Below, one piece after another: positions 7,759 through 45,387 of a stretch of DNA of 64,000 nucleotides; position 1 is the stretch's first letter, and each line of letters begins with the position of its first letter. A program made the translations under genes and the position numbers. The notes beneath the pieces were generated by a model. The model was not told the origin of the DNA. It saw nothing but the letters and a program-made list of their open reading frames with translations, and made no database searches. Origin of the DNA: Natrinema versiforme JCM 10478 (lineage in GTDB: Archaea; Halobacteriota; Halobacteria; Halobacteriales; Natrialbaceae); the NCBI RefSeq assembly GCF_000337195.1, contig NZ_AOID01000029.1, positions 62,001 through 126,000 of the forward strand, in the 5' to 3' direction.

Positions 7759-7777
7759 GACCGGCTGAAAGCCGGTC
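7759..7777. repeat. hairpin upstream of the glycan operon
   Basis: Perfect arms GACCGGC and GCCGGTC with a 5-nt TGAAA loop. On the minus strand the loop region (GCTTTCAGC) sits at box-A distance from the operon start, so it may overlap the promoter or form in a short leader. Confidence 0.4.
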
Positions 7778-7778
7778 T

Positions 7779-7795
7779 CCTTGCATTGTGCAAGG
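7779..7795. promoter_or_regulatory. palindromic candidate operator of the glycan operon
   Basis: CCTTGCA-TTG-TGCAAGG, a perfect 7-bp inverted repeat with a 3-nt spacer, centred about 53 nt upstream of the GT2 start codon. This is where an activator or repressor would sit just upstream of the promoter. The binding protein is unknown. Confidence 0.4.
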
Positions 7796-10759: not shown

Positions 10760-10778
10760 GCGGGATCAAAGATCCCGC
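10760..10778. repeat. 8-bp inverted repeat with AAA loop
   Basis: GCGGGATC-AAA-GATCCCGC, perfect pairing; directly precedes the next hairpin. Confidence 0.65.
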
Positions 10779-10784
10779 GAGGTC

Positions 10785-10809
10785 CAAAAGAGCGCTTCGC
10801 GCTCTTTTG
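10785..10809. terminator. 11-bp hairpin flanked by A4/T4
   Basis: Left arm CAAAAGAGCGC, loop TTC, right arm GCGCTCTTTTG. The arms end in A and T runs, so either strand would give a stem followed by four U residues, a bidirectional terminator-like shape between convergent genes. Confidence 0.5.
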
Positions 10810-42717: not shown

Positions 42718-43917
42718 TCAGTTGGTCGTGATGACCTCGATCACGTCTCGAGATTCGACCTCGTAATCGCTGCCCAGTTGGCGGTTCGTCCGGCAGTCGA
42801 TCGCGTGCAGGAAGCCGTCGCCGATGTCGGAGTGGAGGCTGTAGGCGAAGTCCTCCGCGGTCGAGTTCGGCGGGATCAGGTAGCAGTCGGGCAGCACCTC
42901 GCCGCGTTCGTTCCCCAGTCCGTTCGCGCCGCCGGGGAAGACGGGGGTGACCCCGAGGACGTCGAAGAGCGCGGTTTCCAGCGCCGCCTGGACGCCCGTC
43001 GCGCCGAACTCGGAGAGGAAGTCCCGGATCTGCTCGAGTCCCTGTTCCTGATCGCCGGAGATGTCGCCCGTGATCTCGAAGTCGTCGTCGCCGGGTCGGT
43101 AGTCGACGACGCCGGCTCCGTCGGCGGATTTGAGGGCCTTCTCCGCGTGGGCGCTGCAGGGAACGATCGTCAGGTGATCGTAGTCGGGGTCGTTCGTGAT
43201 CTCCTCGTAGTTTGCCTGCGCCTCGGGGGTGTCCATCTTGTTCGCCGCGATGACCATCGGCTTGGTCTCCTTGCGGATCTCGCGGGCCAACTCGAGTTGG
43301 TCGTCCTCGTCCCACTCGTCGGGATCGAAGCCGACGTCGACGCGCCGAATGAGGCGTTTGATCTCGTCTTCGGTCGTCTTGAACGCGCTCATCTGTTCGG
43401 CGAGTTCCTCCTCGATGGCGTCGTCCTCGGTGGTGTAGCCCGTCTCGTATCGATTGATCCCCTTCTCCAAGACGCCGAGGTACCACTGGTCGAGTTCCTC
43501 TTCCAGGAACGCGATGTCGTCCCGCGGGTCGTGGCCCTCGGTGGGTTCGCCCTCGGCGTCCGTCTGCCCGGAGAAGTCGACGACGTGGACGAGCACGTCG
43601 GTCTCGTTCAGATCGGAGAGGAACTGGTTGCCCAGCCCGTTGCCCTCGTGTGCGCCGGGGATCAGCCCGGCCACGTCGACGAGTTTCGTCGGGACGAAGC
43701 GGGTCCCGTGGTCGCAGTACCCCACGTTCGGGGTACACTCCTCGTCGAATTCGGGTGCCGCACAGTCGACGCGGACATAGGCCTCGCCCACGCTGGGGTC
43801 GATGGTCGTGAACGGGTAGGCCCCTTCGGGAACGTCGTTCATCGTCGCCGCATTGAAGAAGGAGGACTTGCCGACGGAGGGTTTGCCGACGAGTCCGATC
43901 CGGTAACTCGTACTCAT
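42718..43917 (-). CDS. YchF/OBG-type GTPase with TGS domain (archaeal)
   Basis: 399 aa. G1 loop GKPSVGKSSFFNAATM (residues 11-26), G3 DVAGLIPGAHEGNGLGNQFL, G4 NKMD, and a C-terminal TGS domain (LPDCYLIPPNSTAEDFAYSLHSDIGDGFLHAIDCRTNRQLG). An insert CTPNVGYCDHGTRFVPTKL follows the switch region, as in archaeal MJ1332-like proteins. Binds the ribosome in known homologues; its exact role in archaea is open. The promoter box (CTAAACGGGTTT, 43941-43952, read on the minus strand) makes it nearly leaderless. A damaged copy of its 5' end lies 267 bp upstream. Confidence 0.93.
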   Translation of the reverse strand: MSTSYRIGLVGKPSVGKSSFFNAATMNDVPEGAYPFTTIDPSVGEAYVRVDCAAPEFDEECTPNVGYCDHGTRFVPTKLVDVAGLIPGAHEGNGLGNQFLSDLNETDVLVHVVDFSGQTDAEGEPTEGHDPRDDIAFLEEELDQWYLGVLEKGINRYETGYTTEDDAIEEELAEQMSAFKTTEDEIKRLIRRVDVGFDPDEWDEDDQLELAREIRKETKPMVIAANKMDTPEAQANYEEITNDPDYDHLTIVPCSAHAEKALKSADGAGVVDYRPGDDDFEITGDISGDQEQGLEQIRDFLSEFGATGVQAALETALFDVLGVTPVFPGGANGLGNERGEVLPDCYLIPPNSTAEDFAYSLHSDIGDGFLHAIDCRTNRQLGSDYEVESRDVIEVITTN

Positions 43918-43940
43918 TATCCGTCCCTCGAGCGGCCAGA

Positions 43941-43952
43941 CTAAACGGGTTT
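43941..43952 (-). promoter_or_regulatory. box A of the GTPase gene
   Basis: Minus-strand AAACCCGTTTAG, 24-35 nt upstream of the ATG at 43917; also kept in the damaged upstream copy at 44206-44217. Confidence 0.55.
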
Positions 43953-44063
43953 TGTTCCGATTCCAGGGTGCTACGGGTACTCCTGCCACACAGTTGTTCG
44001 AACCGTTCGATCGTTCGACACCCCGTCATCCCGAACTCTCGGGCACGTCGTTCATCGTCGCCG

Positions 44064-44090
44064 TCGCAGAATCGTTGTGCGATTCTGCGA
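44064..44090. repeat. hairpin 1 of the insert in the GTPase duplication
   Basis: Arms TCGCAGAATCG and CGATTCTGCGA, perfect 11 bp, loop TTGTG. Part of about 53 bp absent from the functional copy. Confidence 0.75.
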
Positions 44091-44091
44091 T

Positions 44092-44114
44092 CCGTCAGTG
44101 CGGAGCGCTGACGG
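44092..44114. repeat. hairpin 2 of the insert in the GTPase duplication
   Basis: Arms CCGTCAGTGC and GCGCTGACGG with one G:T-type mismatch, loop GGA. It follows hairpin 1 by one base. Confidence 0.7.
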
Positions 44115-44319
44115 CGGCATTGAAGAAGGAGGACTTGCCGACGGAGGGGTTGCCGACGAGTCCGATCCGGTAACTCGTACTCAGTATCCCTTCTGGACGG
44201 GGGGCCTAAACGGGTTTCTGTCCGGTAGCCGCGTGGTATATCCATCCCTGCCACAGCGTCGTCGCCGCTCTCGCTGATCCGACGAACAGGTCAGACCCGC
44301 AGTCGCCCGCGACTCGAGC

Positions 44320-45387
44320 CTATTCGAGAACAGTAGCTAACGCGTCCATCGTCCGATCGACGCGGTCGACGCGCGCGTTGTGACCCATGTGACCGATGCG
44401 GAGGATATCGTCCTCGAGGTCGCCGAGTCCGGTCGCGAGGACGATATCGTGATTCTCGGCGAGCGTTCGCTGCAGGGCCGTCGCGCTCTCGCCGACCTCG
44501 AGCGCGGTCACGGTCGGCGACGGCGTCGCCTCGTCGGGGTACAGCGACAGGCCGAGATCCGCGGCCCGCTCGCGACAGCGCGCGGCGGCGTCCTCGTGGC
44601 GCTCGAAGACCGACTCGAGGCCCTCCTCGCACAGCAGGTCGGTCGCCGCGTCGAGCCCGTACAGGTTCGACGCGAGGTGCGTGTAGGGGAACCACTCGTC
44701 GGCGGCGGCGTCGCGCCACGGCTCGAGGTCGGTGTACAAACTGTCGGTCTCGAAGGACTCGATCTTCTCCCACGCGCGGTCGCTGATCGAACAGACCGTC
44801 AGTCCCGGCGGCGCGCTGAAACACTTCTGGGACGCGCCGAGGCAGACGTCGATCCGGTCGGTCGGCACCGGCGTCCCGCCGAGCGAGGAGACGGCGTCGA
44901 CGACGCTAATGACGCCGTGTTCCTCGAGCGCGTCGAGAATGGGCTCGATATCGTTCACCGTGCCCGTCGGCGTCTCGCAGTGGACCAGCGTTGCCACGTC
45001 GAACGACTCGTCGGCGAGCAGGGCCTCGACTCGCTCGCGATCGAGCGGGTCCCGCCACGGGGCGTCACAGACCACGGCCTCGCCGCCGGCCATGTCGACG
45101 AAGTCCGCAAACCCCTCGCCGTAGAGGCCGTTCGCGATGCACAGCACTCGATCGCCCGGTTCGACCAGCGAGGCGACGGCGGCCTCGAGACCGAGGATGC
45201 CCTCGCCGCCGAGGATCGCGATGTCGTCGTCGCCGTAGATCGCCTCGAGTTTGGCCGTCAGGTCGCGGTAGAACTCGAAGAACGCGGGTTCGACATCGGG
45301 ATTGGGCGTCGGCTCGCTCATCCGTTCGCGGACGGCTGCGGGCACTTCCGTCGGCCCGGGGGTCATGCGCAGTCGATCGTCGCTCAT
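44320..45387 (-). CDS. class V aminotransferase (serine/alanine-glyoxylate type)
   Basis: 355 aa PLP enzyme. RMTPGPTEVPAAVRERM opens the fold, GEGILGLEAAVASLVEPGDRVLCIANGLYGEGFADFV binds PLP phosphate, HCETPTGTVNDI and VVDAVSSLGGTPV supply the Asp, and the Schiff-base Lys is in LGASQKCFSAPPGL. It is close to serine-pyruvate or alanine-glyoxylate aminotransferases and (S)-phosphoserine-like members; exact amino donor is not clear. The start MSDDRLRMTPGP is chosen over a large upstream antisense extension. Confidence 0.9.
   Translation of the reverse strand: MSDDRLRMTPGPTEVPAAVRERMSEPTPNPDVEPAFFEFYRDLTAKLEAIYGDDDIAILGGEGILGLEAAVASLVEPGDRVLCIANGLYGEGFADFVDMAGGEAVVCDAPWRDPLDRERVEALLADESFDVATLVHCETPTGTVNDIEPILDALEEHGVISVVDAVSSLGGTPVPTDRIDVCLGASQKCFSAPPGLTVCSISDRAWEKIESFETDSLYTDLEPWRDAAADEWFPYTHLASNLYGLDAATDLLCEEGLESVFERHEDAAARCRERAADLGLSLYPDEATPSPTVTALEVGESATALQRTLAENHDIVLATGLGDLEDDILRIGHMGHNARVDRVDRTMDALATVLE

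Follow-up and report, generated by a model that had tools for sequence, protein, structure and literature searches.

Haloarchaeal ychF genes carrying a small two-hairpin palindrome: probable inactivation and restoration through a second 5′ end

An intact ychF gene in the haloarchaeal genome G000 is preceded by a damaged copy of its own 5′ end and promoter, split by a small two-hairpin insert. Which of the two 5′ ends is the original, and what became of the other? A sequence-only reading of the window (the whole stretch of DNA analyzed here, 64,000 nucleotides [nt]) had left a choice between a dead duplication and a structured alternative leader with an upstream open reading frame (ORF). Here, we report a comparison across haloarchaeal genomes, on which we regard it as probable that ychF was inactivated by the insertion and then restored through a second 5′ end, with a fossil left behind.

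Methods

The ychF product was compared with NCBIfam profile NF007171.0 and the insert region with Rfam. A covariance model of the ychF insert (R1) was used with upstream ychF regions from 108 family genomes; an order-wide search covered 392 genomes, evenly drawn. A second model (R2) represents a related class of palindromes; copies were counted across whole genomes by model searches.

Results

The ychF locus and the fragment upstream of it all lie on the minus strand, with the following features.

42718–43917, minus: intact ychF (PRK09602, YchF-related putative GTPase), 399 amino acids, single open frame (NF007171.0)
43918–44008, minus: working (most likely newcomer) ychF promoter region and its upstream spacer; box at 43941–43952; matched in G055
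44009–44059, minus: probable native ychF remnant 3′ of the insert (GACGATGAACGACGTGCCCGAG...), merging into unrelated spacer (25-nt repeat at 44039–44063, 96%)
44060–44118, minus: stretch matched by R1 (1.0e-18); two-hairpin palindromic insert, 54 nt inserted, with in-frame TGA
44065–44089, unstranded: hairpin B, 10-bp stem and 5-nt loop (fold; covariation table)
44092–44114, unstranded: hairpin A, 7 perfect pairs plus inner pairs (fold; compensatory C-G/A-U at one pair across genomes)
44119–44184, minus: probable fossil of the native ychF 5′ end, codons 1 to 22, with ATG changed to CTG and Lys to Asn (64/66 nt identical to the gene)
44185–44260, minus: probable native ychF promoter; box at 44206–44217; tail resembling the promoter of G023, where the left neighbor gene is the same
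44320–45387, minus: aminotransferase-like gene (PLP dependent; named from sequence motifs), the native left neighbor, 95% identical in sister genome G015

The product scored 542 bits against NF007171.0 (E value, 6.8e-163), above the curated cutoff of 387, which places it among YchF/OLA1-type GTPases. Much as the sequence-only reading had described, a second version of the first 66 coding bases lies 267 bp upstream, with two mismatches, one turning the ATG into CTG (44182–44184) and the other Lys into Asn (AAA to AAC), and the promoter box CTAAACGGGTTT occurs in both copies. The copies also resemble each other 5′ of the box (GTGGCAGG...). One repeat (43847–43922 and 44114–44189; 76 nt, 96% identity) has a spacing of 267 nt, and a second (43826–43850 and 44039–44063; 25 nt, 96% identity) has a spacing of 213 nt; the difference, 54 nt, is the insert. 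Homology downstream of the insert extends further in G016 and G013 than in G000. The two hairpins also proved to be as proposed, the insert and its flanks folding at −26.7 kcal/mol (z = −4.7; 0/200 shuffles equally stable). No Rfam family matched the insert region above its gathering score (best, sR17, 15.6 bits against 36; E value, 0.49). CUGA and GAUGA near the hairpins may invite a C/D-box reading. Two more close hairpin pairs lie outside obvious genes (window positions 7759–7795 and 10760–10809), with about 0.2 such pairs expected by chance per 64 kb.

The same fragment with the same insert was found in 4 of the 29 genomes of the genus (G000, G008, G013, and G016), and the family search added G053, G113, G117, and G125, from three other genera. 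Both are thus present in 8/108 inspected family genomes and both missing from the remaining 100. An assembly error, which the sequence-only reading had named as a possible refutation, is excluded by the presence of the arrangement in seven other family genomes; these are independent assemblies, several with very few contigs. The order-wide search added G272, G360, G303, and G408, from two other families, so that the search proposed earlier ended with 12 genomes of three haloarchaeal families in which one and the same ychF codon has this insert. A complete ychF follows downstream in 10 of these, with the insert about 95 to 235 nt from the ATG wherever ychF is intact. On a tree built from the ychF body, the carriers fall in separate places, with at least four changes forced, and a single duplication inherited in one clade was ruled out by this scatter. 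An exact pattern scan of named genomes gave one match, Natronolimnohabitans innermongolicus JCM 12255, which is probably G113. No viral contig contained an exact match to the hairpin pattern, and a viral origin was rejected on that basis.

The fragment reads in frame for 29 codons and, as had been noted, ends in the insert; its stop is a TGA within the first hairpin. In 10/12 carriers, the insert is 54 nt long, so that the downstream frame is kept, hairpin A brings the in-frame TGA, and the peptide read is NA-VV..xxL*RAAES..DSATA-TMN. We set aside a selenocysteine-type readthrough of this codon, as the fragments decay and no frame is conserved. Separately, at loci L255 (G272) and L256 (G360), a second palindrome (CCGTCGGAC..GTCCGACGAGGATCGCGAACC) lies in the P-loop of the ychF fragment; it is of a third palindrome class that also occurs at L185, L194, and L199.

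The two carriers without a complete ychF show the outcome when no second 5′ end is gained. In G408, the insert lies inside a continuous, unduplicated ychF with further frameshifts, a pseudogene; in G303, only the 5′ fragment and the insert are left of the gene. Both keep just the 44 to 45% identical paralogue, which other genomes also have. These unrescued genes weigh against a neutral tandem duplication whose redundant copy was entered by the palindrome later, as G408 and G303 have the insert in unduplicated ychF and 0/108 family genomes have a fragment without the insert. Such a duplication would yield the own-lineage promoters seen on both copies in G117, G272, and G360, and it would suit G113, where the insert looks younger than its surroundings: the insert is 51/53 nt identical to that of G125, and the fragment differs from its own gene by 13 substitutions and 12 gap positions. 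An insert so much better preserved than its surroundings seems odd for a passive fossil. On balance, we consider duplication before insertion unlikely.

As to which 5′ end is native, the promoters and the flanks are informative. In G008, the broken copy has a promoter 92% identical to those of sisters G019 and G022, and in G125, one 93% identical to that of congener G123; in both genomes, the working promoter is of another type. The left flank of G016 matches its sister G011. From the end of the left neighbor to the ychF ATG, there are 405 nt in G000 against 128 in G015 (aminotransferase end) and 374 nt in G016 against 95 in G011, so that G000 and G016 have gained about 267 to 280 bp. The 72 nt before the ATG of the working gene in G000 are 90% identical to the single-copy ychF promoter of G055, from a different genus, and are not of the type of G015. 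As the upstream promoter of G000 has no close match to that of G015 across its whole length, its nativeness there rests on the neighbor gene and the resemblance to G023. From the promoters in G008 and G125 and the left neighbor and enlarged distance in G000 and G016, it is most likely that ychF originally started in the broken piece and that the intact gene carries a newcomer promoter and 5′ end. The idea of a dead duplication holds as to the dead piece; its direction is most likely the reverse.

The source of the replacement 5′ end appears to vary. In G117, G272, and G360, both 5′ ends are of own-lineage type, which would fit local duplication or homogenization of the copies by gene conversion. 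G000, G008, and G016 have different promoters yet CTG and AAC in common, and this calls for short recombination tracts or for shared ancestry with losses. A conserved motif (TGCCACGT..CATACCAC) about 25 to 50 nt 5′ of the promoter box in most genomes of the genus (L008 to L028) is a possible regulator site.

The foreign-type working promoter downstream and the native one upstream in G008 and G125 resemble what target-rebuilding elements produce, as if a larger integrative element had used the ychF 5′ end as its attachment site, brought a replacement 5′ end, and later been deleted to remnants. We find this highly improbable, as nothing longer lies between fragment and gene at any locus read (96 to 232 nt from insert to ATG) and the insert belongs to a dispersed palindrome family in many unrelated genes.

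The course of events that we favor would begin with a small mobile two-hairpin palindrome that had AAYGCGGC as its target, inserted itself between codons 23 and 24 of ychF, and broke the gene by adding an in-frame stop codon. A second promoter and intact 5′ end would then have come to sit directly downstream of the broken start, by which ychF would have been restored in this lineage. We infer this order for G000, as well as the recombination route, which may have been tandem duplication in some lineages and, in others, homologous transfer by which related haloarchaea supplied the restored haplotype. The stretch 44009–44260 would remain as a fossil of the native start, without conserved leader function.

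A functional role of the fragment and hairpins, as a structured leader, terminator, or insulator controlling ychF, has some points in its favor. In the ychF inserts, pairing of the stems is retained from genome to genome (93% of cells, one compensated pair), the insert and GACGATGAACGAC have survived the decay of the remainder in G113 and G053, and the insert always lies about 95 to 235 nt 5′ of the ATG when ychF is intact. However, stem pairing is equally kept by family members inside unrelated genes, where they have no leader role, and the arrangement is missing from 100/108 inspected family genomes. Of the eight family carriers, just three (G000, G016, and G125) have an intact upstream promoter box; two (G008 and G117) have an altered one, and the other three (G013, G113, and G053) have lost it. 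The start codon of the fragment is CTG in three of the seven genomes where it was found (G000, G008, and G016) and ATG in the others (G125, G117, G272, and G360). The nine-codon upstream ORF that had been pointed out exists in G000 (MNDVPESSG), but the ORF behind the insert has 0, 7, 9, 13, 16, 17, 18, 20, 21, or 97 codons across 10 genomes. Since none of these three features (box, start codon, and nine-codon ORF) is conserved, a conserved leader or upstream ORF function appears unlikely, and the alternative leader proposed earlier was not supported; we would give any controlling role of the hairpins little credence.

The ychF insert belongs to a family of dispersed, structurally covarying palindromes of 45 to 65 bp. 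R1 also matched tnpB genes with an in-frame insert at the equivalent motif (DRDANA-VVRLRLTGSKIARDFATA-MN/WN), tnpB being a frequent host. Further R1 matches form a related class, with the peptide DVRKSxALSSQSESxSDSDD, in purK, thpR, an ABC transporter gene, and an acyl-CoA dehydrogenase gene. The model of this class, R2, covaried strongly, with four pairs changed on both sides (0/500 shuffles as good), also detected the ychF inserts, and found members in 117/125 family genomes, with argG and an ornithine-cyclodeaminase-like gene among the hosts; in a phylum sample, 28 of the 29 genomes with matches belong to this order. In thpR, the site is filled in G041, G016, and G023 and empty in sister G021; the insertion there (57 bp, in frame, at GACGTC) is flanked by GACGTY, a possible 4- to 6-bp duplication of GACG(TC). 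The preferred site is AAYGCGGC in ychF and tnpB and GACGTC in other hosts, and the edges are CGTC...GACG in ychF and IS6-type inserts and CGTT...GACG in class c.

Further palindromes were observed along the way. Those at L071, L072, L073, L174, L175, L191, L200, L207, L214, and L217 are in frame, with a recurrent Ser/Asp-rich peptide, and their hosts are purK, ABC transporter, thpR, acyl-CoA dehydrogenase, argG, and ornithine-cyclodeaminase-like genes. At L098 (G023), a 45-bp in-frame palindrome (SEARSASSNRTQSDD) lies near codon 280 of an otherwise intact ychF. Variant inserts of the form CGTC..hairpin..hairpin..GACG (L176, L178, L179, L181 to L184, L187, L192, L195, and L197) lie mostly in IS6-like transposase genes (ADVHESxALVRPIRTxxVLRTA). 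At L086 and L265, two-hairpin elements directly adjoin tRNA-like sequence.

Discussion

Three kinds of known element invite comparison. Rickettsia palindromic elements, which belong to alphaproteobacteria and measure about 150 bp (Ogata et al. 2000, cited in PMC10969869), are, by their description there, similar small mobile palindromes lying in frame within unrelated conserved genes, each encoding a recurrent peptide. The haloarchaeal copies in argG, purK, thpR, the ABC transporter gene, and the acyl-CoA dehydrogenase gene are likewise in frame, and the ychF insert (54 nt) is in frame yet closed by TGA. Unlike those elements as so described, the haloarchaeal family is only 45 to 65 bp long, with two separate hairpins and a site preference. 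CGTC-tagged REP sequences, a superfamily given for five bacterial phyla, none archaeal, form head-to-head dimers in which, as found here, a hairpin pair is bounded by CGTC (5′ edge) and GACG (3′ edge), and share 8- to 9-bp stems, intragenic copies, and the lack of a known transposase (PMC3733652). Their stems start with A-T, with a CCA tail and a loop of 4 to 5 nt (PMC3733652), whereas the haloarchaeal stems lack initial A-T pairs and a CCA tail and have 3-nt loops.

PMC3119063 describes two short, transposase-free repeats of the haloarchaeon Haloquadratum: small mobile repeats or SMR (80 to 110 bp, inverted terminal repeats, no target duplication) and PATEs (subterminal IS605 palindromes). 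Some of these prefer IS605-type elements, as tnpB is a common host here; the present palindromes differ from SMR, as characterized there, in length (51 to 57 bp) and in the possible 4- to 6-bp duplication GACG(TC). In-frame protein insertions were not found described for SMR or PATEs in the passages of PMC3119063 consulted. A search of freely accessible journal papers yielded no description of in-frame palindromes in haloarchaea and no archaeal report of Rickettsia palindromic elements or CGTC-tagged REPs.

We put forward, tentatively and as the less likely side of the question, that the two-hairpin palindromes of haloarchaea may be a protein-coding family, not described before and mobile to this day, whose insertion is directed by sequence. 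Its members would have struck the same ychF nucleotide in separate events in several families, and time after time ychF would have had to be rebuilt around another promoter and 5′ end. With such a family, selfish DNA within protein genes, until now mainly a matter of Rickettsia and some REP-rich bacteria, would have a counterpart in the archaea, and the defined target sequence would be a handle for finding the enzyme that mobilizes the palindromes. The ychF locus can be seen in four states among these genomes (intact, broken, lost, and restored) and suggests that a conserved gene can exchange its promoter through rescue after a small insertion.
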